Assembly (NCBI RefSeq): GCF_000003605.2
Contig: NW_003155740.1
Location: 677,087 to 703,330, forward strand
Reading direction: 5' to 3'
DNA: 26,244 nt
Source: Saccoglossus kowalevskii
Lineage: Eukaryota > Hemichordata > Enteropneusta > Harrimaniidae
Part shown: one piece after another, positions 3,201-26,244 of the stretch
How positions within the stretch are numbered: position 1 is the first letter of the stretch
How the letters are laid out: each line of letters opens with the position of its first letter
Notes under the pieces: model-generated
Told to the model about the DNA's origin: nothing
What the model saw: the letters and a program-made list of their open reading frames with translations, nothing else
The model's database searches: none
Translations under genes and position numbers: made by a program

Positions 3201-6200
3201 GCCATATACATCAATATAATTTTGTTCTATTAACAATTTTAGAGTTGTACACTTTGAGAGCTTTATTAAGGTCTTGGAACTATTGTGTGAAATAAGTATT
3301 AATTATCTGAATTTGATAGGTTTTTGAAAAAAAAGGGGGAATTATAATGCTGCAATCAAAACAGAAGCAAATACTTGTAAATCCATGAGCATTGAAAACT
3401 GTTCATTAGCATTTAATTTAGTAAATCAAATTTGAACACAATCAGTGTTCGAACACTTAAATTCAAATTTGAAACATTCATATGCTCACAATTCATGCAA
3501 ATTCAAAGATGTTTTCCAATGATTCAGTATTTTGCACATGCAGAAATTGAGATACTTTACTAGGACTATATGAAAAGTTTAATGCTCTTCTATAACAATT
3601 TATTCCAGTTAACTGGTTCAAATCTAGAGCACTGTGAAAGAAAGAAAACCGGTTCTTCCAAATATATGGATGCAATATTTGTGAAAGTTAATGAGCTCTC
3701 GACAAGTGACAAAATCAACATGTAAGTATAAACTGATCACCGATAACATAGTTGCTGTTACACCTGATCTGTGATTGGTCCTGAGATCAAATCTTACCAG
3801 GGTTGAATACCAAAAATAGGGATTGGCTTTCTACTCTACTCTACTTACAAATGTCCCTCAGATTCAATGGGAAGGCCAAATCCGCTTGGCAAGATTCATT
3901 CACTTACAAATGTGACTTTGGGTCAGCTTTGAATAAAATACAACATTTTATGTGTTTGATAGGGCCTAGTTGATGCCGGGGTGGTGCATTTCATGTACAT
4001 TGCCGTTTGATATTGTGCTGTCTAATTACTTAATTTTCCTAAATTAACCAATATTATAGGTGTTACAAAAATATCTTGAGTACTAATCAACAAATTTTAA
4101 TGAAACTTTGTACATAGATGCTTTTAGATAATCCACAGATCAGGATTGAAATCAATGTTAATTACCTACTTTGTATGAATATGGTCACATGACCTCGTTA
4201 GTATGCTTTACTTATTATCTCAGGCACTTTTGCAGTCAGAGATGTGCATTTAGTGAAGGCATCAGACAAGAAATACGACTATTTTATCAGATGGCTAAAA
4301 ATGTTCATTTGGCTTGATTAATATGCATAACTGCAACCAGTGCTATAATGAAGGCATCAATTGGACAAGGGATATGACTAACATATTAGATGACTATATA
4401 TATACTGGTACATTGTATATATGGCCATGTAATCTCAATAATATGCATAACTTAAATATCTTAAGTACTTTTGCAGATAGGGAAATGCAACTAGTGATAC
4501 ATGTATTATTTTGTTGTCAGACAAGATATACGAGTGAATTATAAAGTCGTCATATATGGTTATATTTTCTCTAAATATTTATAATTGTTATACCATAGCT
4601 ACTTGGAACTATCCTAATCCCTGCTTACAGTTATATTTTTAAATGCAGTATTTGTAAATGATAAAGGCAAGTCCATGGTCAAAATGCGACAATTTTTGTT
4701 TGTGTGTATTGGAGATGTGTGTTATAAATATAGTAAATACAGTATTCCTTATGTGTACTTCATGCCTTCAATACCCTCGGGACACAAGAGTTCTTTTTGA
4801 GCTTGAGTCTGCTGATTCTAGAATTTACTGTCCATTTCCCACAAATTTGTTTCTGGTCTTCCACTAACCCTTTGCCATTAAACTGTGATGAATCAAATTT
4901 ATATTATGTCACTTTTGCAGACAATGGCCAGGAGGCCTCAAAAACAATGAATGGTTTCTTAATTTCAGAAAAATATATAGGTTCATAAAGTTATTTTCTC
5001 TGTACATAAGTCTTATTTATGAAATGTACTGTACTGTCTGTACTGTATTATCTTTATTAGTAACGCATACAGATATACATTATTGTATATATTTATCCCC
5101 TGTTTGAACGCAATCCGAAAACAAGGAATTATGAATTGATCTGTGTTTGTTCCCGATAAACCTGTGTCATGGACATGCCTTAGTCGAATACAAGTTCATA
5201 CACACACATATATCTTTGGATATGATATACATATACATGTCCATTTGTTTCATAATCTAATTCAAGATGGTCAAATGGTGCCATTTTAAAGTTAAAAATT
5301 CAACAAAATCATTTCCGCCATTCTGGAACCAGATCTTGGTCATGTATGGATAGAGTTCAAACTTGTTACATACATGAGACATATTATGGACGTATAACTG
5401 GTGGCATTTTTTTTTTTTTTTAATCTAATAAATGTGGTTTTTATATATACATTATATATCTTGTTGCATATATGCACATGTATCTGTTTGATCATCAGAT
5501 TCAAAATGGCCAAATGGCGGCCATTTTAATATGAAAATTTCATCAAAATCAAGCGTTTGCGCCATTCTAGACCCAGGTCTCAGTTATACATTTGTTTCAT
5601 GTTCTGATTCAAAATAGCTGACTCATTTCTGTTTTGTTTCTTATTGAAAGAACAACGAACTCTGTCATGTCATGCTTCATATATTAATGATTTATTTTTA
5701 ATAGCTCAATCAGAGAGATGTTAATGAAACTGTTGTTGTTAAGAGCAGTTGGATGGAATAGAGACGAAGAAACACCAAAAGCAGAGCCACCTGCTCAGGC
5801 AGCTTCTGCGCCAGCTCAAGAATTCAGTGTAAGAATATAGATAGAGGAATTGTTGTTCTGTGTTTTACTTTACCTCATAGGATGTTTTCACATCGGCTTA
5901 TTAATTGAAATTGAATTCAAACCCAATGAAAACTTTTTCCAGTTCTATATGCTAGTACTACTTTATTATGAAGCAATCTCACTAAAATTATCTAGGTAAA
6001 GGGAATTCTTTGTTGTTTGTAAAACAGGATTTACTGTATGATATTTAAAACTTGTGTAGTGCTCAGATTATTAAAGCCGGGGAGTCCTCACCTAAACATG
6101 CATCAGGTGGCCATAGTGTGTCAGTGTCTAACCTTGAGCCTTTTCGTTCTCAGTGTGTGCCACTATCATCGCTTGGGACTCAATTCCTGCGCATGCGCAG

Positions 6201-7857
6201 GTGACACCTCTATCTTTTTAAACAAGAATACAGTTTTGTATTTATTATGTGAACTTTCTCTCATTGAGTTAACTATACATGTGTATACATGCTGTATTAG
6301 AATAGCGTTAATTGCATGTAATCTAAAAAATGATCACTTCCAAAATATTGTTGTGCATATGTTTATCTGCATCTGAGATATTTTATCTTATTCGCAATGC
6401 TTTATGCATACAACTCATCTTCTTTTCCAGAATGAACCAATATTTTTTGCTCCAGATGGCAGACAAATCTCTGCCCAAGAAGCAGGTATGATATCATTCT
6501 GTATATATATTCAGACCATCATCCCTTAATATTCCCAGTAAAGCTGTGCTTTCAGAATGCAACTTTAAATATTCATAGCATTTGTATTTGTAAATTATTC
6601 AAACTTCATATCATTTCTTATGTGTTTCAGGTTTCTATAATTATGATGAGTATGATGAAGAGTACTATGGTAATGATTATGAAGTTGATTATCAACAATG
6701 GTCCAAGTGAGTATTTCACTCTATTTATGGTGATTTTCAAACATGTATAATTGATATTTCATTTGAACACGGATCAGAATTAATTTTTTGGTCATAGAAT
6801 AACATATTATGGCCATACAATTGTGATGTAATGTTTTCTGAAAATAGGGGTGTGGTATGATCATGATGTTTACTTGATTTAACAATTCCTATGGTTTACA
6901 CCCATTTTCCTCTATTGATTTATAAATCTTTTTGTATAACTGAAAACACTGCTGGCCCCAAAAAAGTATCATTTGTTGTGGATTGGTTGTTCATAAACTT
7001 TTCAAATGTAATCTTTGGGTTCACTCTACATGTGTGTTTTACTAATATCACATGAACCACTCAACAGAAACTGTTTACACTGATGCTTTGGAATAATACG
7101 TAGACCTAATTAGTTTGGGGTCAAATACATGTGCATTAATTACCTAATTTTCATAATAATTATTTCACTTTTAGCTTGTTTAAGAGAGACCTGATTAGCT
7201 TTTGGCAGAAATCTGTTTGAACTAATTATCTAACTAGTAATTATTAGCTAGTTTTTAATGTTTCTGGGTATATTTGAATAATTTCTCAATGTATTTCAAT
7301 AAAGATTGGTTCATAATTGGTACTCCGGCTAAACTTAGTAATTTTAAGTAATTTGGCCAAAAATCAAATCTGAAAGTAATTATACTAATAGTTATACTGA
7401 TCACAACTAGACGCTTTGCACTGTTTATCACCCAAGTTATTTATCATCACCACTTCAATAAATCAGTCATGCATTGCTGTTCAAAGAATGCTAAACTAGG
7501 AAGTAAGTAATGTTTGATGTACAATGTTCCTCTGATACTGCAGTATTATGAATAAAACATTCAGAAACAGCTCAAGTGGTGTGCATTCAAAATTGATCTT
7601 AATTAAAAAATTTCATCAAATATTATTTTGGTAATATACTCCATTTTTAATCGCCGAACAGAAAGTCCTGACTTGATGACACCCTAAGATGCTGAAAACT
7701 AAATCACAATCAAGAAACTGGGTGAAGTTTTCTATGATTCTTTTCTTGTTTTTGCAGTGAAGATGATGAGTACTATGAAAATGCAATTGTATTAGATGAA
7801 GAAGCCTGTGCTGACTATGAACAATTTTTGAGAGAAACCACTGGTGGATATTCATAG
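234..7857 (+). CDS. PAIP1: PAIP1-like polyadenylate-binding protein-interacting protein 1, 3' part (8 exons)
   Basis: Eight exons splice into one open frame of 813 nt (270 aa plus TAG): 234-346, 758-866, 2784-2906, 3609-3721, 5705-5828, 6431-6485, 6631-6706 and 7758-7857. All introns begin GT and end AG, and the codon phases match at every junction. Residues 1 to about 170 read as the C-terminal part of a MIF4G domain, with the PAIP1-type motifs YTGARMCNYLS (exon 1), LKLTGSNLE (exon 3/4 junction) and LMKLLLLRAVGWN (exon 5). An Ala/Pro linker (exon 5) leads to NEPIFFAPDG (exon 6), which matches the post-MIF4G segment of PAIP1. The tail is highly acidic and tyrosine-rich and ends in a DEEACADYEQFLRE segment resembling the C-terminal PABP-binding motif. 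In the family, PAIP1 bridges cytoplasmic poly(A)-binding protein with eIF4A/eIF3 to promote cap-dependent translation. The N-terminal exons (start codon, PAM2 motif) lie upstream of the window. Identification rests on remembered family motifs, not a database search; a divergent MIF4G paralogue is the main alternative. Confidence 0.85.
1239..1263. repeat. GTY trinucleotide microsatellite
   Basis: About eight consecutive GTT or GTC triplets, GTT in the first part and GTC in the second. It encodes poly-Val or poly-Thr in spurious open frames on either strand and lies inside intron 2. Confidence 0.8.
2415..2457. repeat. GATG tetranucleotide microsatellite
   Basis: Five perfect GATG units are followed by degraded ones (AAATGGATGAATAAGTAGATG), an ordinary decaying tetranucleotide repeat inside intron 2 of the PAIP1-like gene. 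Confidence 0.85.
4216..4520. repeat. Degenerate tandem repeat, period about 120 bp
   Basis: Related segments recur near 4225, 4320 and 4440: ACTTTTGCAG with AGTGAAGGCATCAGACAAG, then AATATGCATAACTGCAACCAG with ATAATGAAGGCATCAATTGG, then AATATGCATAACTT with ACTTTTGCAGATAGG. The copies are too diverged to fix a unit exactly. They may belong to the TTTGCAT-type dispersed family next to them. Confidence 0.4.
5225..5610. repeat. Diverged tandem duplication inside PAIP1 intron 4, period about 240 bp
   Basis: The phrase near 5264-5345 (TCAAATGGTGCCATTTTAA, later TCCGCCATTCTGGAACCAG, then ATCTTGGTCATGTATGG) recurs near 5501-5590 (CCAAATGGCGGCCATTTTAA, then TGCGCCATTCTAGACCCAG, then GTCTCAGTTATACAT). 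The preamble ACATTTGTTTCATGTTCTGATTCAAAAT appears a third time in part at about 5587-5615. The second copy retains GGCGGCCATTTTAAT, a YY1-like string, probably by chance. Confidence 0.6.
6075..6217 (+). mobile_element. TTAA-flanked MITE, copy 1 (in PAIP1 intron 5)
   Basis: A 143-bp non-coding element bounded by TTAA on both sides (6071-6074 and 6218-6221). The left end AGCCGGGGAGTCCTCACCT pairs imperfectly with the reverse complement of the right end, AAAGATAGAGGTGTCACCTG, as terminal inverted repeats. The interior aligns with copies at 15807-15951 (opposite strand) and 19386-19542, sharing GGCCATAG-GTGTCA and TCGCTTGGGACTCAA. It carries a perfect palindrome CCTGCGCATGCGCAGG (6186-6201). TTAA target sites fit piggyBac, Kolobok or Sola3 derivatives; which one cannot be decided without an autonomous partner. 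The open frame across this position is only MITE sequence. Confidence 0.8.
6707..7757 (+). other. Intron 7 of the PAIP1-like gene with a TTTGCAT-type dispersed repeat
   Basis: A 1051-bp intron between the acidic-tail exons. About 7040-7260 matches the dispersed family also seen at 4020, 19880 and 21900: CAGAAACTGTTTACACTGATG, GACCTAATTAGTTTGGGGTCA, TTAATTACCTAATTTTCATAA and a second partial unit with GAGACCTGATTAGCTTTTGG. Nothing else was recognised. Confidence 0.6.
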
Positions 7858-12884: not shown

Positions 12885-13484
12885 ATGTTGGCCGCTCTAA
12901 AAGCTGCTGCTGCGAGCAGTCAACAGAATGATGGACTGCAAAGGGACAAATCACCGGCGCCCGCCGCCCCGAAGCCCAGCAGTGAGTCCACTGCGACAGG
13001 TGCAACCGGTGAGAAAAGTGATAAACCCGCAAGACCGTCGATAAGTTTGTTTGGCAAGAAGACGTCCATGTGGAACACACTGCATAAGATGATAGCAAAA
13101 GAAAAAGCCGCGCCCGCACAGAAAAAGTATGAGAATACCTACAAAATGAAACCAGATCCAGGCAGCGAGTTCCGATCTCATTTAGTTCGCCAGACCATCG
13201 AGGACATACTGTGCACCAGGCTAGAGGGGGAGAAATATGACCCCAAAAAAGCGGCACAACTGGCACGAAACCTGTCTGACGTCATAAAAACCAGAGTGAA
13301 GAAATTACACATCCCTCGCCATAAAATAGTCGCACATGTGATCGTCGGGTCGTGCCAGGACCAAGGTTTGAAATTGGGAAGCAGGTGCGTATGGGACGAG
13401 AAAACAGACAACTTCGCGTCGGGTTCTTTTAAAAATGGTTCGATATTCTGCGCAGCAACAGTTTATGGGATATATGTTGAATAA
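12885..13484 (+). CDS. Tctex1-domain dynein light chain, DYNLT4/DYNLT5 (TCTEX1D)-like, single exon
   Basis: An uninterrupted 199-aa frame. Residues 1-80 form a low-complexity, Ala/Pro/Ser/Lys-rich tail with PSISLFGKK at 51-59. Residues about 82-199 are a complete Tctex1 domain: YENTYKMKP (82-90), the helical region with TIEDILCTRLEGEKYDP (104-120), LSDVIKTRVK (130-139), LHIPRHKIVAHVIVG (141-155), and the C-terminal strands SRCVWDEKTDNFASGSFKN plus ATVYGIYVE. The ENTY motif, IPRyKi and the ending VYGIYVE are those of the DYNLT4/DYNLT5 branch rather than DYNLT1/3. Family members bind dynein intermediate chains or act in ciliary/axonemal dynein assemblies; a ciliary role here is inference. The start is the first ATG after an in-frame TGA. 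Length fits the branch (about 180-220 aa). The coding part has no intron; a retrocopy origin is possible, but the frame is intact. Confidence 0.9.
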   Translation: MLAALKAAAASSQQNDGLQRDKSPAPAAPKPSSESTATGATGEKSDKPARPSISLFGKKTSMWNTLHKMIAKEKAAPAQKKYENTYKMKPDPGSEFRSHLVRQTIEDILCTRLEGEKYDPKKAAQLARNLSDVIKTRVKKLHIPRHKIVAHVIVGSCQDQGLKLGSRCVWDEKTDNFASGSFKNGSIFCAATVYGIYVE

Positions 13485-13775: not shown

Positions 13776-15806
13776 AACGAGTTACCGTTATTGTCTATAG
13801 AGCGACTGCAACAGACGTGGTACAAAGGACTCGTATCGCATTCATAGGCAATCCATCCTAATATCTTTACTACAGGCTCAGTTTAAGTCAGAAACGACTA
13901 TTGTAGTGTGTTATTTCTATTGATTTAATCAAGCTCACAGTTTCCCACGTACATGCGATGTCAGCGTACAATACACCGAGGAGCGCACCATTGTATTCGT
14001 GTTTAACTACATCGATCTGGTATCGTAGTTTACATCATGATGAGAACATTAACGATGAGACTCGTGCAATGTTTGACGGAACCTGGATTGTTAGTGGTTT
14101 ATTTTAAGCAATACATTCACACATGTCTACCAGTCCCGAATTGTAACATAATAATTTATTAAGAGCATTAATTACAAACACACACAACAACTGTACACGT
14201 AGACTGTGTCTATAATTAGCGTTTGTAATGAATTAGTATTTTATAATTAGAGAGGCGTTACTGACGACCTTTCTCTGCGTGTGTCGATAGAAGACCTTCA
14301 GCATATTTGCATGTACTGCATCACATACTAGCTCTGAAGTAATAGGTTGAATATTCTCTCAAATCACAAAAAAAATAAAAATCACAATCACCTTAAACAT
14401 TTCTTAATTTCGTAAACTAATTTGCATATCAATGGTTTAGAGCGGAATCGTTGTAATTATTACAGTCAATGTATGTATCTCAATGTATTTTATATCTTAC
14501 ATGTTTGTGTGCCTTATTAATTATTTAAACATACGCAAATTAGGTTTCCACTTACAATAATCAACTTAGCAAGTATTTTAATAATCAGACATACACCCTA
14601 TTTACGTTCAGTATTTGGCGGCCATGTTAGAGTCCCGTTATCTTTAATGAGGCGGTGTAGGTGAAATTATATATTTTAGCATTTTTGAAAATTGTTTGGT
14701 TTGATATTGCATCCTTTTAAAACAATAGAACATAATTTTTATTCAAATGAATTTCTTGTTGACAGCAACGACCAGAATTCCCACGACGAAATAATGAATA
14801 AGCTATCGTATACATTATTACAATCGTTTTCGTATTTTCACATATACTCACAATTATCCACATTGCCTGTTGCTTTATATTGTCCTCGTTTAACTTTAAT
14901 TGTATTTAGCGTACGTGGGATATATCAATGACCTTTTATATGCAATAAACTTCTAGTCTTTATCGCAGTGGTCGTGACTAAGCAGTGTAATTGTCCCCGC
15001 ACAATAACGTTAGTACGATTGATTTAATACTGATCAATGTGAACGTTTATTATAATTGCTATGTTTATATATCAATTTCACTCCTATGCATTTCTGGGTG
15101 AATGTTAATTAACATCCGGTTAAGTTACAACGTGATGGGTGTAGTCATACAGGATGTGTCTTTAATTCACAACGGTAGTGAGAGACGGTTCAAAACTTTA
15201 TCAGTCTTTCGACACGTTTTTAGTGGTTCCACATGGACGAAGAGTTACAGTGACGTGAAGAGACGCCATATTGTTTTGATCTGTGTTACACATCAACATG
15301 AAGGTAATATTATTCAGAAATGTGTTCTAGAAACAGAGTATTAATTTTAGCCGAGATCTTAGTTTCATAGTATGTGTCCAGAATAGATTTCTGTATAAAA
15401 TTATCTTTATTTTGATGAATATGTCGATGTTGAGTACAGTGTGAATGAATTACATGCATTTTCTTTTCTAGTAATTCGTTGAAACAAGTAGTGACCAAAT
15501 TTCATAACAAAGAAAAGATATCCAACAGACGTTTGCTTTGATCAATGGTTTTGTTTCAAATTTAAATTCCACATATAAATACATTTTTTTTATATTATAT
15601 GATATTTTTGAAGTTGGTTAATCTTTTCGACCTGAATATCAACAAATTAAGACAATTGAGTATTTTCTTTGGACTTTATAAGCTCATGACGTGAGATTGA
15701 CCTACCATCAACTCATCTCTACATCATGCATTTTTAGAACTTCAAATACCGCATCCAACTATTAAATGTGGCGTATCTTTTCTCGCAGGAGGTGGGAAAA
15801 ACTTAA
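13776..15806. other. Intergenic stretch, nothing recognised
   Basis: AT-rich sequence with short overlapping open frames on both strands (14692-14931, 15102-15344, 15310-15498). None shows family motifs or splice-consistent context. No strong repeat was seen until the MITE at 15807. Confidence 0.5.
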
Positions 15807-15951
15807 AGCTGGAGGGTCGCCAACTGCGCATGCACGGGAATTGAGCCTCAAGCGACGATAACAACACACGCTAAAAATTGGTATACGCTTGTTTGTAAAC
15901 AATGACACGCTATGGCCTTCCGGCGCATGCACAGGAGACAACTCCACCGCT
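15807..15951 (-). mobile_element. TTAA-flanked MITE, copy 2 (inverted orientation)
   Basis: A 145-bp element between TTAA at 15803-15806 and TTAA at 15952-15955. Read on the minus strand it begins AGCGGTGGAGTTGTCTCCTG and contains GGCCATAGCGTGTCATTG, TTTACAAACAAGCG, TATCGTCGCTTG and a terminal GCGACCCTCCAGCT, aligning closely with copy 3. It carries TGCGCATGCAC near one end and GGCGCATGCAC near the other. The open frames overlapping it on both strands are MITE-derived. Confidence 0.82.
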
Positions 15952-15955
15952 TTAA

Positions 15956-18741: not shown

Positions 18742-19381
18742 TGGGTGGGGGTGTAATACATAGAACTTGCCTAATGGAGAAATGGTTCTGTTTTTTAGGG
18801 GGATTTTAGGTATAAGTATCGGTCTTATTTCTGTTCAAGATAGGTATAAATATCAGTAATATTTTTCCGATTTGGTATACTTATGTAAGTGACAAAGGTG
18901 TTTCTATGCTCAAAATACATATTTTAATAAATAAATATACAATGCAACTGTTAGCTTACATGTGCTTCTATTGGAGATGCTCTTCTAATAAGCAAATACG
19001 GTAACTGTTTTATTTGGAATAAACAGTGATGACAGAAATGGTACTTTGGTATAAATATGGGTATACATTTTGCCACTATCCAGGTATAAAAATGGACACC
19101 TTTTTGAGCACTCAGGGGCACCTCTCTACCCAGCTGTGTATCAACTGCTCCTCGGGGCTTCAGCTAGTCCAATCTGATTAAAATAAGATCCTGGTTGGCT
19201 TATTTTTTTTTTATATAATTACTATAATTATTATTTATTTTAATTATTTACTATAATTATTATTATTTATTTTAATTACTTTTTAGCGTTACAATTATTT
19301 TGCAGCAATGGTTTTCTTCGGTGGTTTTTAATGAGTGTAGTAGTGTTGTTCAATAAGGTCGTTCTGATGTCCCTTCATATA
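18742..19381. other. Intergenic stretch with AT-rich duplication
   Basis: No gene was seen. Phrases such as GGTATAAGTATCGGT, GGTATAAATATCAGT and GGTATAAATATGGGTATA recur between 18807 and 19095, suggesting an old short repeat. At 19212-19277 the phrase TACTATAATTATTATTTAT is duplicated in tandem. Confidence 0.4.
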
Positions 19382-19385
19382 TTAA

Positions 19386-19542
19386 AGCAGGGGAGTCGTC
19401 ACCTGCGCATGCGTTAGATGGCCATAGCGTGTCATTGTTTACAAACAAGCGTCTATGCATGAGCCTTTGCGATTTTAGTGTGTGTTGCTATCGTCGCTTG
19501 GGACTCAACTCCCGTGCGTGCGCAGGTGACGGCCCTCCCGCG
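19386..19542 (+). mobile_element. TTAA-flanked MITE, copy 3
   Basis: A 157-bp element between TTAA at 19382-19385 and TTAA at 19543-19546. The left end AGCAGGGGAGTCGTCACCTG and the reverse complement of the right end CGCGGGAGGGCCGTCACCTG form inverted repeats that continue into GCGCATGCG / GCGCACGCA. The interior holds GGCCATAGCGTGTCATTG, a palindromic TTGTTTACAAACAA and TATCGTCGCTTGGGACTCAA. It is the best-preserved copy of the three and has no coding capacity. Confidence 0.85.
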
Positions 19543-19879
19543 TTAAACACTTCAATAGTTGTGAGTCACTTAAAATTGTTTTTGGATTAATATAAAATTA
19601 TTGCAGCATTTATAGCTTTTTTGTGCTGTCAAGTAAATCATTCATAATATTCCAGGTCTTCCTAGCATCATTGTTGACATATGTGAGAAAAAATGATATA
19701 ACGTGGCTGTGACGACTTGTATATATTAGCAATATCGCATACATGTAGATTGCCAATAATCGCTGTATTAATTCTAATTCACGTAAAACTGTAGTAAATC
19801 AGAATTACAACACAAAATAAGTTAGCTCCAAAAGTTTGTTTCCAGAGATATTGCCACGAGAGAACGCTATCACAAAGTC

Positions 19880-20240
19880 ATATTAATAACTTAATTTGCA
19901 TGGTAATTAGCACATTTTCAGCTGTTCCATGATTGTTCCATTTATATCTAAAGAACCACTCATTGAATTTTTATGAAACTTGGATCATAGATGCTCTGAA
20001 TTGATGCCAGGTTTTTATTAGTTTTGGGTGAAATTCTGTACATAGTAATTACCTGATTTGCATAATGATTTGTAAATTTTTTCCTGATATCTCAAGCACT
20101 AATCATCACATTTCAATGAAACTTGGTACATAAATCCTCTAAAACTATACAGAGACCTGATTAGATTTGGGGTAAAGAATTTTGCATATTAGTCACCTAA
20201 TTTGCATAATTAAAGCATTGTCAACAACATAGTCCCTTTC
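19880..20240 (+). repeat. TTTGCAT-type dispersed repeat, tandem copies
   Basis: At least two successive diverged units, each with a phrase like TCAATGAAACTTGGTACATA, then AGACCTGATTAGATTTGGGGT, then CACCTAATTTGCATAATTA and a run-in of ATATCTCAAGCACTAATCA. Related copies occur at about 4020-4200 and 7040-7260 (same strand, in PAIP1 introns) and at about 21880-22080 (opposite strand). No coding capacity or terminal structure is apparent. Confidence 0.7.
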
Positions 20241-20945
20241 ATGTTATTAATAATGAAAGATGTAGTCTGATTATATTTAAATATTGGGATAGTATTTAGC
20301 ATATTACTAACAAAATGTGCATGAACGCTTACAGTTATGCATAGTCTGCATATTTTGCATATTTTGTGATTTTATTTACTTTTGAGAAAAATGTCTGACA
20401 ATTGCTTAAATTTCAATGAAATCGAAAAGTAACTGGAAACAACAATAAACTTGTTATATCATGTTTTTATACCATATTTAACCAACATCTGTACAATCAA
20501 CTTTGTAAAATGAACAGAAATTACTACCAGTCTGCCATTTTGAATCAAATCACGAAAAAAAAATGACATGCATCAGTAACGAAGGGGATGGAGCAAGTAG
20601 GGAGGACTGGTGTTAGTTACAGGAATTAAAAAAAAGGCATTTTACGTTTTTACAGGAAATAAAATGAAAGTTCCGTTTACAGTAAAATATAGGTTTTTAC
20701 ACTTTACAGATAAAGACAATTCCATTTTACATTTTTATAATAAATTTGAAAATTTGTGTTTAAGAATCAAAATTGGAAATAGCGTTTAATGTAGAAAATG
20801 CTGTATACACTTATAAAAAAAATAAGATCTTTATACATATTACGGATGATTATAATTGCTGTCTACGAATTTACGTTATTTATTTATTTAAATTATATTA
20901 TTACGAAAAAAACAATTGATTTATAGCTTAAGAAAATACCCCTTT
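20241..20945. other. AT-rich intergenic stretch
   Basis: No gene. Between 20625 and 20740 the phrase TTTTAC with TTTACAGT or TTTTACA recurs irregularly, another drifted short repeat. Nothing else was recognised. Confidence 0.4.
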
Positions 20946-21250
20946 GCCGACCTTCAGTAACCCATCATGACTAAGGTCAATACCAAGTTTGAATGAAATC
21001 GGTCAAGGCATGTCCGAGAAACGGTCGATGATATATCCAAATGTTGATTTTTTTGTGTTTTTTGAGACGAAAAAATCTGTCAGTCGGTCAAAGGTCAACC
21101 AAACCAAAAATAAATCGATGTGCATATGTCTCCCAATGTGACTTGTGTTTGTACCCAGGTTTGAAGAAAAGTTGTCAAGGTATCCCTGGAAAACGAATGG
21201 AGCCCAAACCATAAGTCCTTGTTTCGGACTACGTCCGCCGGGGACTAATT
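20946..21250. repeat. Dispersed repeat fragment with paired GGTCAAGG phrases
   Basis: Two related phrases lie about 175 bp apart: AAGTTTGAATGAAATCGGTCAAGG, recognisable from its halves AAGTTTGAATGAAAT and GGTCAAGGCATGTCCGAGA near 20987, and GGTTTGAAGAAAAGTTGTCA with AGGTATCCCTGGAAAACG near 21160. The segment ends in TTCGGACTACGTCCGCCGGG, a GC-rich string unlike its surroundings. It looks like a fragment of an interspersed repeat; the 69-aa minus-strand open frame here is a shadow. Confidence 0.4.
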
Positions 21251-21627
21251 ATCATGCAACTTTTATTTTTCATACGTCTATCCTTGTTTGTATCTGAATT
21301 AAAAGACACATAGGAAATGGATATATATGTAAAGTCAACCTAATAGTTGCTAAAATCTATTGGTATTCAGTCTACTTAGATATGCGCACACTGGAAATTT
21401 TTAGACAAAAGGGACAATGAAAAATGTATCAATTGTGTTTGGCAAATAAAAACAAAATTTCCCATTTTGGAATTATGTTATATCACGATAATTAAACATT
21501 ATACATAACATACTTTGACTGAGGTATAGCACGTTGAGCACTACCTAGATATTTGCTTGTTAACTTCAGAGTTGCAGTACATGATTTAGCGTCTGTTGGC
21601 TATCATGCTAACAACCAAACTCTTCAA

Positions 21628-23843
21628 CTACAATGCTACAATGCCACCAGAGTTGTCTTCAAGCGGATTAATTGTATTCGCCACTACTTCTAATTCATCA
21701 TATAGGAGAGGAGAATGACGATTAGGAATGACAACTGCTGCTGCTTCTTGTTCTGGAACAGGTCCATGCCAGTCAATCCGGTATTCACTTATTTCATCCT
21801 GTGAGTAAAAATTACATCAATAAATTAAGTACACACAAATAAATATGCTTATAATAATGTTATTCCAAATAAAATCACATATATGCATTATTTTAGAGCA
21901 CCTATGCATCAGTGGTTCTTGAGATATCAGTGGAACTGCTTTAAATTAGCAAATTAAGTAACCAAATTGTACGGATTTCAACCAAAAACTAATCAGGTCT
22001 GTGCCTTTCATAGAGGGTCTACGTGCCAAGTTTCATTGAAATCTGATGACAAGAACAGACACAAAAAATACAAACTAGTTTATGACTATTGTGTAATTTG
22101 TACGTATTCGTAAATTGTACAAAATCCAAGTTAAGAATTTAATAAAGGTATTTGTATCTAACAATAAGTTACATACATTAGCGTTAATATAGACAACGTT
22201 GTATAATATTTGTTACTTACCGCAGTGCTTGGCTCAAATTATTCCTGCATAACTCTATACCTAGATTCTGCCATAATCAGACACCCTTGAATCCAGAGCT
22301 GTATTGGGGTGAATATATTTTCAGAGCATAGCTTGTGTTTGTTCCATCCATCTTGACAGTTTTGATTAATAATAATAGTGAATGCAAAACAAGTCAAGAT
22401 CATTATCTGAATCAAGATCATGGTGGTCCTCCAAGTAATAAAACAGATAATAATATTTAAAGTGCATGCCTTAGAAGGCATCTCTCCACATCTTTTCAAT
22501 TCTCTGGTTGTTTACACGATTCCCAGCAATACAGCTACCTCTACCCTCTCTTTCAGGGTGGCTTAACATAAACCGGGTAACACCCTGTTTTATTCACCTT
22601 TATCAGCTCTAACGCGTGTGGGGGATATTGTATATTTCTACAACATGGCGAAAACAATCAAGTACAGTGGAAGCTTTGTTATTATCAATACTTTGTTATT
22701 ACACAACACACCACACACCGAGAGTACCCATTCACACCTCCACGAAGTACAAATTTCCACCTGTTAACCAATAAGAAATAGCGTAGTTCTTTTTACCAGC
22801 ATATACATCATGGGTTCAATGGGGACATTTGTTGCATTATTATTAGTTGAACTACACTAAATTAAGTTAAAGCCGCTGTAATATCCTTGGCCGCCCTACA
22901 AAGTTTCATTTATTTGCAATACAGGTGAGTTATATTAGTTACAAAAATATGCACAATATCATGATAATTCTTTGTTCAACAATCGACAATTGACTAAACT
23001 ACTAAATCTCCGTTTTGAATTCACAGGACGGACTATATTTTACTCATGGTAAAACTGCATCGTTACGTACTTCCCAGGTTATATTAGTTGTATTCAGTGC
23101 CCACGCGAAGCAGTATTCTAACAGCATTGCATGTTGGCATTTATTGTAATGGCATTTAGAAATAACTTATAATAACTTAAAACGATAAACGGTGCAACAC
23201 ATAAGATGTAATCTCGAACGTCCTTATCTTTCGGATTTGATTTCTGGCAAATCACAATTAAAAAGGGTTCCGCGTTTTCAACTACGCTTTGCTACAATTT
23301 TAAAGAATGTTTTGGAGTCCCAGATCCGGATTGACGGGAGAAGTAAGGGATTTAAGTAATTAATAATAAATACATTTAAATGTATTGTTAAAATATTTTA
23401 TTTCACGGTCAATACTACTGAACTTACCTAATGAGTTTGTGGTTACCATCTATGTGCCAGAGGGCATTTGGGCATGTTACGTTGTAATTTCGTCTCAAAA
23501 CCGTATTAGTTCGTCTGCTATCCACCCCAGTGTCCACCCCATGTGGGTCGACCCGAGTCCTTAGGCTTTTGCGTACGCGGAATATTGGTAGCCACTTTCC
23601 TTGGGCTATGAGAAGTCCATGCAATCTCGTCATTCCCGTATTTGGGAGTAGTTCGATAACATCTGAAACTATTCTGTTAAGTTTGTTGTCGGTAATCTGA
23701 GTGTATTTGCGGGCGTATTTAACATGTATGTTTCTGGTACGCATGGAAACACTTAGCATTGTCGATATCGATGGCTCGGTAAAACGTTCATTAAGCAGAA
23801 ACTGTAACTGTTCCTTACATATATCAACTCCACCAGAGAACAC
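21628..23843 (-). pseudogene. Decayed spliced DDE/rve integrase-like gene (3 exons visible)
   Basis: Read on the minus strand, three exons with intact splice sites assemble: 23843-23428, 22760-22221 and 21798-21628. Exon A gives an N-terminal helical DNA-binding-like region and ends with NALWHIDGNHKLI, holding the first catalytic Asp. Exon B continues WKFVLRGGVNGYSR, then [25 protein letters not shown] (second Asp), [21 protein letters not shown] (third catalytic residue Glu), FYYLEDHHDLDSDNDLDLF and GWNKHKL...TPIQLWIQG. Exon C gives EYRIDWHGPVPEQE and ends INPLEDNSGG...TAG. This matches a multi-copy integrase-core family found in many invertebrate and fish genomes. Stops occur in the expected frame at 22590-22592, 22471-22473, 22366-22368 and 22239-22241, and frameshifts lie near 22690-22720, 22620-22624 (C run) and 22560-22590. 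It is thus not translatable as one protein. Intron 2 carries a TTTGCAT-type repeat. Classification to a named transposon superfamily was not possible. Confidence 0.8.
21880..22080 (-). repeat. TTTGCAT-type dispersed repeat, inverted copy in the integrase pseudogene intron
   Basis: The reverse complement reads TTTCAATGAAACTTGGCACG, then AGACCTGATTAGTTTTTGG, then TTACTTAATTTGCTAATTT and ATATCTCAAGAACCACTGAT, the same order as the plus-strand copies near 19960-20230. It lies wholly inside the intron between pseudogene exons B and C (21799-22220). Confidence 0.65.
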
Positions 23844-23913
23844 CTATGTCGTCCGATAAGTTACAGACAACATGAATGCATTGTCGTTTGCTAGATTAAT
23901 CTAATTTCGAGCA

Positions 23914-24041
23914 TCAGTTCTTGCCGAGTCTTTGGCTTTGTGTGGCGAGAATATTCTCAACAACTCTAACAGCATCATTTACAGCGCCACGACAAGCTTC
24001 GACAGCCTGTCCTGAGATCGAGAAAAGTCACCCGCGGCCAT
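23914..24041 (-). pseudogene. Possible N-terminal exon of the integrase-like pseudogene
   Basis: On the minus strand an ATG in good context (TTAAAATGGCC, ATG at 24041-24039) starts MAAGDFSRS. A second frame then continues QAVEACRGAVNDAVRVVENI to a TGA at 23916-23914. The helical EACRxAVNxAVR pattern fits the N-terminal segment of this integrase family. Joining the two frames needs either a one-base frameshift or an internal acceptor (TTTTCTCGATCTCAG). No clean GT donor towards the exon at 23843 was found (only a GC donor candidate), so the link is tentative. Confidence 0.35.
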
Positions 24042-24145
24042 TTTAATTGAAGCAGAGTTGCGGACGATGCCCCAAAACATGTTTTTTTTGTTAAATAATT
24101 AAAATAAATATATTGTAAAATGTTGTCATTGATAGTAACATAATC

Positions 24146-24280
24146 GTGTTTGACCGAGCCTGGTTGACGCCAGGATAGCGCATTAAAATTGCCATTTGAT
24201 AGAGAGAGGTCACACAGTCCTGTCATGTAGTCCCAAACACGAATATGACTTCTGTGGCAAAATGCACTATGTGTCAGCAC
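24146..24280 (+). repeat. Dispersed repeat (GTTTGACCGAGCCTGGTTGA type)
   Basis: GTTTGACCGAGCCTGGTTGA, GCCATTTGATAGAGAGAGGT and CGAATATGACTTCTGTGGCA with AAATGCACTATG recur in diverged form at about 1044-1160 (TTGTTTGACTGGGCATAATA, then CAATAGAGAGATGGTTACAC, GAATATGGTTTCTGTGGCAT, AATG) and in part at about 3955-4015 (GTTTGATAGGGCCTAGTTGA, then TGCCGTTTGATA). It looks like an old interspersed family of at least 115 bp. The 101-aa minus-strand open frame crossing here is a shadow. Confidence 0.5.
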
Positions 24281-24460
24281 TATCGACTACGGCAACCGAG
24301 ATGGCTCACAACATGGCATTTTATAAAACCATTTTCACAATTAATTTTTATTTATAATTCCTTTTCAATAACCATTTTCGGTTCTGAAATCGATTTTTAA
24401 AACCCACTTTCGCTTCTGATATATGTTTTCATTATAAAAAAACACTTGTTTGAATCCATT

Positions 24461-24825
24461 TTCGTTTTTAAAATCCGTTTTCAAAATCCGTTTTCATTTT
24501 CAAAATCCATTTTTTGATTTCAAAATCCATTTTCGTTTTCAAAATCCATTTTCATTTTTTAAATCCATTTTCATTTTCAAAATCCATTTTTGATTTCAAA
24601 ATCCATTTTCGTTTTTAAAATCCATTTTTGATTTCAAAATCCATTTTCGTTTTTAAAATCCATTTTTGTTTTTAAAATCCATTTTTGATTTCAAAATTCA
24701 TTTTTAAAACCCATTTTTGATTTCAAAATTCATTTTCGTTTTTAAAACCCACTTTGTTTTCAAAATCCATTTTCATTTTTAAAATCTATTTTTTAATCCG
24801 TTTTTGTTTTTAAAATCCATTCTCA
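24461..24825 (+). repeat. 19-bp tandem array, left arm of the foldback element
   Basis: The word AAAATCCATTTT starts at 24522, 24541, 24560, 24579, 24598, 24617, 24636 and 24655, each exactly 19 bp apart; variants (CCGTTTT, CCCATTTT, CTATTTT) extend the array both ways. Units differ mainly at CG/CA/TG after TTTT and at TTTC versus TTTT before AAAATCC. About 19 units are present. Looser relatives (ACCATTTTC) occur further out at about 24327 and 24371. Confidence 0.9.
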
Positions 24826-25018
24826 CGTTTTTGTTGACATTTGAAGTATAGGTATATACGTATTTTTCACGTTGACGCAAATTTTCCATCAGAATTTACA
24901 TAAGAATCGCTGTTGTTTCTCGCCTATCGCTTTAACTGTTTTTACTAAGATTCTCATTTCGATTCGATATTCGATTTGTGTTTAGTTTACCATTTCACCT
25001 TGACCTGATAGTTTTTTT

Positions 25019-25141
25019 GATTTCCACCAGTGATGTTTCCATGACAAGGCTTCTCTACGTAAGTTATTCTTCAGGCTATAACTTTAGCCGTGGTTCCGCG
25101 GCGATTTTGGTTCATAAAGGGCTCTTGGTTTCACCGGTTGG
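25019..25141 (+). repeat. Inner inverted-repeat arm, left
   Basis: Aligns with the reverse complement of 25340-25470 over about 125 bp. Shared blocks are TTTCCATG, AAGGCTT, TACGTAAGTT, CTATAAC, GCCGTG-TTCC-CGGCG and AGGG-TCTT. Differences are scattered substitutions and small indels, so both arms have diverged since they were made. The 62-aa open frame over it has no homology that I recognise. Confidence 0.8.
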
Positions 25142-25339
25142 TCACAGTCAGCTGGCGCACACCTGATATAATAAAATAAACCTTGGAGCTCTCATTTTAT
25201 CAGCTGTAACGTTGATACTCAGATTAGAACAAGTTATAGCTGTGGGTCTGCTGTGTTATCGTACCGGATAAGATACTGTTGGTATACAAGGCAGCGCCAT
25301 CGGTGTTTGTACAGGCATTCAACGCCACAGCGTAAGCCG

Positions 25340-25470
25340 ACAGATGAAGCTAAGAACCCTCTATGGATCCACAAACGCCGTGGAATCACGGCCAAATAGG
25401 TTATAGTCTTAAGAAGAAGAACTTACGTAAATAAGCCTTACCATGGAAATGTCACCGGTGGTAATAACAA
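25340..25470 (-). repeat. Inner inverted-repeat arm, right
   Basis: Reverse-complement partner of 25019-25141. Its minus-strand reading runs CACCGGTGACATTTCCATGG, TAAGGCTTATTTACGTAAGT, CTATAACC, GGCCGTGATTCCACGGCG and AGAGGGTTCTTAG. The span between the arms (25142-25339) shows no clear continuation of pairing. Confidence 0.8.
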
Positions 25471-25539
25471 ATTCGGAATCCGAGTTACAATTCCTAGTCA
25501 CGTGGTATGAGGTCAGAGGGCGAGGTCACAGGTTAAAAA

Positions 25540-25735
25540 GTGAAAATGAAAATGGGATTTTGAAAATGAAAATGGATTTTAAAAATGAAAATGGATTTTA
25601 AAAATGAAAATGAATTTTGAAAATGAAAACGGATTTTAAAAACGAAAATGAATTTTGAAAATGAAAATGGAATTTGAAAACGAAAATGGATTTTGAAAAT
25701 GAAAACTGATTTCAAAGATGAAAATGGATTTAAAC
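25540..25735 (-). repeat. 19-bp tandem array, right arm of the foldback element
   Basis: On the plus strand GGATTTTAAAAATGAAAAT units recur every 19 bp (for example GGATTTT at 25574 and 25593). This is the reverse complement of the left-arm array. About ten units are present. The 60-aa minus-strand frame rich in Phe, Ile and His, with repeated FKIHF words, is a product of the array, not a gene. Confidence 0.9.
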
Positions 25736-25787
25736 AATTGTTTTTTAAAATAAAAACAGAATCCAGAAATGAAAGTGGTGTTTAAAC

Positions 25788-25941
25788 AAGCAGCCTGTCG
25801 GCTGAGATAGCTCCGCTGTTAGCAATGCACATTTCAATTAAAGAACTGAAGACATCATTAGACAAAGCAGCCTGTCGGCTGAGATAGCTCCGCTGTTAGC
25901 AATGCACATGGCAATTAAAGAACAGAAGATATCATTAGAAA
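25788..25941 (+). repeat. Two tandem 77-bp units
   Basis: AAGCAGCCTGTCGGCTGAGA starts at 25788 and again at 25865. The two 77-bp units differ at only about five positions (for example CATTTCAA versus CATGGCAA), so the duplication is far younger than the neighbouring arrays. Each contains CAGCCTGTCGGCTG, a short imperfect palindrome, and ends with a CATCATTAG or TATCATTAG phrase also found in the next repeat. Confidence 0.9.
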
Positions 25942-26244
25942 ATGAACAAATTTGAGAGAGGTCCACATGTAGTACCTATATGTATAATATATCAAAGCAA
26001 TTGGACTTGCGGTTTTCAACAAGAAGTCGAAAATATCACTTTTTACCAAAAATTACAAAAATATTCATCAAAATTAGAGAATTAAAGATATCATCATGAA
26101 ATGAACAAATCTGAGAGAGGTCCACATGTAGTACCTATATATGTAATATCAAAGCAATTGGACTTGCGGTTTTCAACAAGAAGTCGAAAATATCACTTTT
26201 TACCAAAAATTACAAAAATATTCACCGAAATTAGAGAATTAAAG
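25942..26244 (+). repeat. 159-bp tandem repeat, about 1.9 units, running off the window
   Basis: TGAACAAATTTGAGAGAGGT near 25942 recurs as TGAACAAATCTGAGAGAGGT near 26101, and the following GGACTTGCGGTTTTCAACAA plus GAAGTCGAAAATATCACTTT are identical in both. Only a few substitutions and a small indel in the TATATGTATAATATATC part separate the units. The unit end AATTAAAGATATCATCATGA resembles the end of the 77-bp unit, suggesting one composite satellite that continues beyond 26244. Confidence 0.85.

Follow-up and report, generated by a model that had tools for sequence, protein, structure and literature searches.

Near the right end of a 26,244-nucleotide stretch of the genome of the hemichordate Saccoglossus kowalevskii (contig NW_003155740.1, positions 677,087 to 703,330; the whole stretch is hereafter called the window), two arrays of 19-bp tandem repeats face each other in mirrored arms around a short loop. 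The question raised by this locus is whether the structure is a mobile foldback element, as an earlier note on this DNA had proposed, or a local inverted duplication and, if it is mobile, what kind of transposase moves it. The structure proved to be one damaged copy of a dispersed, gene-less foldback DNA family. We hold with high confidence that this is a foldback transposon family, and we estimate a probability of about 75% that it is a non-autonomous family of DNA transposons moved by an IS3EU-type transposase; its assignment to the IS3EU superfamily is accordingly given here as probable.

The architecture of the window copy was examined by self-comparison, tandem repeat detection, and comparison with other copies. 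The earlier note had reported opposed 19-bp arrays around a loop of about 200 bp, with about 19 and 10 units, and our measurements agreed with this description. The array of arm A contains 18.5 copies and that of arm B, on the opposite strand, 10.0 copies, the loop between the inner arms measures 195 bp, and the cores of the inner arms (25014-25141 and 25337-25471) are 76% identical as reverse complements. The inverted self-match of the whole element scored 239 bits, compared with at most 42.8 bits for the best of 100 dinucleotide shuffles, and the part without the arrays (24826-25540) scored 93.3 bits, compared with at most 34.6 bits in 100 shuffles. In addition, the DNA folding energy of positions 24288-25790 was -301.6, versus a shuffle mean of -151.9 (standard deviation 8.4, n = 20) and versus -108.6 to -154.0 for 10 other stretches of the window. 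The extent given in the earlier note, 24390 to 25788, was right at its right limit, but the left limit lies about 100 bp further out, at 24288, where a 29-bp terminal inverted repeat (TIR) starts. The parts of the copy are as follows.

24282 to 24287, no strand: presumed left copy of the 6-bp target-site duplication (TSD; ATCGAC), positioned as in ten two-ended copies; the right copy is gone in the window
24288 to 24316, + strand: 29-bp TIR of the A end (TACGGCAACCGAGATGGC...), the terminal repeat of two-ended copies
24317 to 24452, + strand: outer arm A with degenerate array-like units, from comparison with other copies
24453 to 24792, + strand: 19-bp tandem array of arm A, 18.5 copies, from tandem repeat detection
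24833 to 25141, + strand: inner arm A with the inverted core 25014-25141, from self-comparison, other copies, and the tree
25142 to 25336, no strand: loop of 195 bp, from comparison with other copies
25337 to 25540, - strand: inner arm B with the inverted core 25337-25471, from self-comparison, other copies, and the tree
25541 to 25731, - strand: 19-bp tandem array of arm B, 10.0 copies, from tandem repeat detection
25732 to 25788, - strand: remnant of outer arm B, from a 66-bp match to another copy (L009); the remainder of the arm and the B-end TIR are absent

The 66 bp in question (25721-25786) match L009 at 92% identity, in the inner part of its B outer arm. The right outer arm breaks off near 25788, and the contig continues as N beyond the end of the window. 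Two adjoining tandem duplications, 25788-25939 (two copies of 77 bp) and 25926-26244 (two copies of 157 bp), lie between the broken arm and the contig gap.

The family is dispersed in the genome. The 123-bp inner arm gave 24 matches, including the window, in the 572-Mb assembly (G000, 4830 contigs, of which C4507 carries the window), with inverted pairs on four contigs. Among the 20 inner-arm loci examined (L009-L028, including the window), 10 of the 19 other loci had a TIR at both ends, and the remaining nine were one-ended or had no recognised TIR. Nine of the ten two-ended copies showed the order outer arm, array, inner arm, loop, inner arm, array, outer arm, with some modules partial. L022, a two-ended copy, gave no match to the A inner arm, and about 0.7 kb of other sequence divides the B inner arm of L025. 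The foldback copies that were read showed no transposase gene. The earlier note had named single-copy inner arms, with no other locus of the same module order, beforehand as the sign of a local inverted duplication; the arms instead recur with the same module order at other loci, and its proposal of a mobile family was borne out.

All ten two-ended copies carry a 29-bp TIR (TACGGCAACCGAGGTGGCTCACAACATGG, zero to three mismatches) outside the outer arm, with the terminal motif TACGG..CCGTA and thus TA..TA ends. This TIR had 78 genome matches at up to three mismatches, and the reversed-pattern control had none. A 6-bp direct duplication flanks the TIRs, exact in eight of the ten copies and matching at five of six positions in the other two; pairing of flanks across loci as a control gave no exact match and two matches at five of six positions among 90 pairings. 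In five further TIR-bounded places (L029-L033), the duplication was exact twice, matched at five and four of six positions once each, and was absent once. These target duplications at other copies demonstrate transposition. Empty sites for the ten two-ended copies were sought among L009-L028 and none was found, the matches being the copies' own flanks and one 49-bp match between L011 and L017. L029, L031, L032, and L033 are short TIR-bounded relatives of 356-862 bp which have kept the outer arm and, in three of the four, part of the inner arm; they are probably deletion derivatives.

The window copy itself interrupts an abundant short repeat.

24146 to 24282, + strand: abundant short repeat with the element inserted in its 3' part, from a repeat search and sister copies

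These 137 bp left of the element had 893 candidate copies in the genome, and among the 40 that were scored, including the window's own, the other 39 were 93-96% identical to it. Five sister copies were examined: the three in the same orientation continue beyond the point at which the window turns into the TIR, and the two in the opposite orientation likewise continue, as judged by eye. In sister copies the repeat is part of a longer unit that has an A-rich tail and in which stretches like the A and B boxes of tRNA genes can be made out by eye, and it is therefore probably a tRNA-derived short interspersed nuclear element.

A local inverted duplication of tandem repeats without mobility would accord with the imperfect inner arms (76%) and with the loss of one end from the window copy. 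The dispersed inner-arm matches, the target duplications at unlinked loci, and the insertion of the window copy into a repeat copy all speak against it, and we rejected this explanation as having practically no chance of being correct.

The termini bear on the superfamily. IS3EU elements are described as usually having a 6-bp TSD and TA..TA ends (PMC10045372), and a set of fungal IS3EU families as ending in TAYGG..CCRTA (PMC12730594). The foldback family matched all of these hallmarks. If another superfamily moved the family, for example a Mutator-like one as in Tm1, the IS3EU-like ends would be convergent. A 6-bp duplication is compatible with the 4- to 10-bp TSDs of the MuDR-containing group, and no complete transposase-bearing copy was seen, Mutator transposases not having been sought; on the other hand, TSD length and TAYGG..CCRTA ends together fit IS3EU, and on the one contig found to combine the TIR with a similar array and a transposase match close by, that match is to an integrase core. 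The TSD of Mutator-like elements is usually 8-11 bp. We consider movement by such a superfamily unlikely. A non-autonomous Polinton or Dada element would share the 6-bp TSD, which is 6 bp long in Polintons and 6-7 bp in Dada elements. However, Polintons have AG..CT ends, in contrast to the TAC..GTA (TA..TA) ends of the foldback family. Dada elements are described as inserting into tRNA or snRNA genes, and Rfam gave no matches in the 18 loci examined. An origin from either group is very improbable.

The contig just mentioned, C88, carries the evidence from the transposase side. This genome gave 59 matches to the integrase-core family PF24764, grouped in 45 clusters, and 14 control genomes gave none; a search with an 18-bp TIR gave 99 genome matches at up to two mismatches, with none in the control. 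C88 starts with a perfect 18-bp TIR and is identical to the family TIR over its first 22 bp; 4.8 kb inward from the TIR it matches PF24764 at 39 bits, with one stop. Its first 600 of 13,631 bases, i.e., one end, were read. Behind the TIR they contain array-like sequence whose unit type and strand are those of the foldback family: a rotation of the array unit fits in 15 or more of its 19 bases at 266 of 581 positions, compared with none on the other strand. The array is most regular at 306-598, with 16.3 copies of an 18-bp unit.

Several observations weigh against an IS3EU-type mobiliser. Random placement would yield about 0.04 (0.039) TIR-integrase pairs like that of C88, a pair which came to light through a deliberate search. 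None of the elements seen combined both TIRs with a transposase, C88 having been read at one end. The 78 matches of the 29-bp TIR have no contig in common with PF24764 except C4507 and C2715; the former is the contig of the window, whose integrase gene is not part of the element, and on the latter the two are about 880 kb apart. An integrase locus of 4.5 kb (L055) has no such TIR and is too short to reach one 4.8 kb away. Finally, that PF24764 represents the IS3EU transposase family is our inference. Weighed together with these points, an IS3EU-type mobiliser is the best supported reading, short of proof. In addition, 20 of the 45 PF24764 clusters begin no more than 20 kb from the start of a contig, and contigs may tend to break near these elements. 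L034 was considered as a transposase-bearing relative and rejected; it is a solo arm with an unrelated Tc1-like open reading frame (ORF), identified by eye, far away.

With an IS3EU-type mobiliser, the TACGG..CCGTA ends would be bound by a transposase, most likely an IS3EU/GingerRoot one, whose gene lies elsewhere in the genome, and the arrays would probably supply extra binding sites. The transposase would then move the element and leave a 6-bp target duplication, after which array length would drift through gain and loss of repeat units. It is possible, at odds which we place slightly below even, that the foldback lineage arose within IS3EU. The subterminal array would then be no product of decay but a transposase-binding array already present in an integrase-bearing member such as C88, with the array end ancestral and the foldback its gene-less mirror form.

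Next, the ancestry of the two arms was examined in a tree of 19 inner-arm rows, from which L011B was omitted as too short, to which L022A and L025A contributed no match, and in which L019A was half N. The nine A arms grouped together as a clade with 99/99 support, and the ten B arms fell outside it. The left and right inner arms thus have separate ancestries, indicating that the element has dispersed as a whole, its polarity fixed, and that its arms were not homogenised within copies; homogenisation by gene conversion was accordingly considered unsupported.

Array length differs between copies. In the nine full-order copies, Tandem Repeats Finder counted 8.1 to 24.5 units in the A array and 7.8 to 17.9 in the B array. 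The window copy, L009, and L010 share 97.5-98.3% core identity. Between the window and L009, a gap of 38 bp in the A array and one of 57 bp in the B array correspond to two and three 19-bp units, whereas in comparisons with L010 the gaps measured 89, 63, and 51 bp. The window also showed a gap of 21 bp against each of L009 and L010. None of these four lengths is an exact multiple of 19, and gap placement within the repeats is approximate. Slippage or unequal exchange, which the earlier note had invoked for the unequal arrays as changes after insertion, may account for them and fits the differences between the window and L009; the gaps to L010 are less regular. Sequence resembling the array unit begins directly behind the TIR, and the outer arm may therefore be a decayed part of the array; the match scores of the two L009 outer arms to the array unit were reached by 1 and 0 of 300 base shuffles.

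The window also contains a gene of the integrase-core family.

22266 to 23843, - strand: integrase-core (PF24764) gene outside the element, with stops and frame changes, from a profile search

One ORF of this gene scored 26.6 bits (cut-off, 26), four of six further pieces matched, each below the cut-off, and the genome search gave 82.9 bits with eight stops inside 22330-22710. The interruptions are due to decay or to introns, between which these data do not distinguish. In NCBIfam, the ORF matched IS3 and IS481 transposases with E values of 0.033 and 0.082, far below the cut-offs. The gene is 445 bp from the foldback TIR, and this closeness may be due to chance. It was rejected as the element's own transposase gene because the TIR does not enclose it and a short repeat separates the two. 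Its pieces gave a best non-self E value of 0.065 in a tblastn search against L009-L048. We also looked for TA..TA pairs with a flanking 6-bp duplication; the 10 pairs found, the best of which were AT-rich (e.g., 19264-24110), were taken as chance. Elsewhere in the window, an ORF at 12885-13481 (+ strand) encodes a Tctex-1 protein of the dynein light chain family (PF03645, 99.6 bits); together with the assembly size and genes which to the eye look spliced, it agrees with a eukaryotic source. Three copies of another short repeat, 70-78% alike and in two orientations, lie at 6069-6205, 15803-15955, and 19380-19546; inverted ends and TTAA borders, seen by eye, resemble those of a miniature inverted-repeat transposable element of the piggyBac or Kolobok type.

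In structure, the family belongs with the foldback class: its long inverted arms consist of several domains, contain tandem repeats, and are of unequal length, and its dispersed copies have target duplications. Drosophila FB and sea urchin TU elements carry tandem repeats inside inverted arms. The likeness of the family to them lies in this feature, by description and not by sequence, and the comparison drawn in the earlier note holds for architecture but not for superfamily, as the termini point to another transposon superfamily. Tetris of Drosophila virilis (PMC4079207) shares flanking, tandem-repeat, and inner arm domains, is non-autonomous, and has repeats which resemble its flanking domain; its units are about 220 bp long versus 19 bp here, the paper leaves its superfamily undetermined, and the likeness is again one of description. 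The Mutator/foldback element Tm1 of root-knot nematodes (PMC3169594) has 13-15 bp tandem repeats in its arms, with copy numbers unequal between arms and copies, but differs in its 9-bp TSD and terminal motifs. Galileo (PMC4168063) has long inverted repeats that certain copies carry in lengthened form, one of them through tandem repeats, but has a P-superfamily transposase and repeats of about 140 bp. With IS3EU/GingerRoot (PMC10045372, PMC12730594), the family shares the 6-bp TSD, the TA..TA ends, and the TAYGG..CCRTA motif, and one contig that bears a matching TIR also holds an integrase-core match; unlike those elements, it was seen without coding capacity and has arms of several hundred base pairs with tandem arrays. 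No foldback IS3EU element was found in the open-access literature searched, in which, among the papers listed, "foldback" and IS3EU co-occur only via a reference list. Most links of foldback structure have been to Mutator, although Galileo, for one, belongs to the P superfamily; a foldback element with IS3EU-type ends, if confirmed, would be another independent origin of this structure. Near-identical copies would allow array growth and loss to be followed, and the array-like sequence soon behind the TIR, in foldback copies and on the integrase-bearing contig alike, offers a direct test of the arrays as transposase-binding sites.
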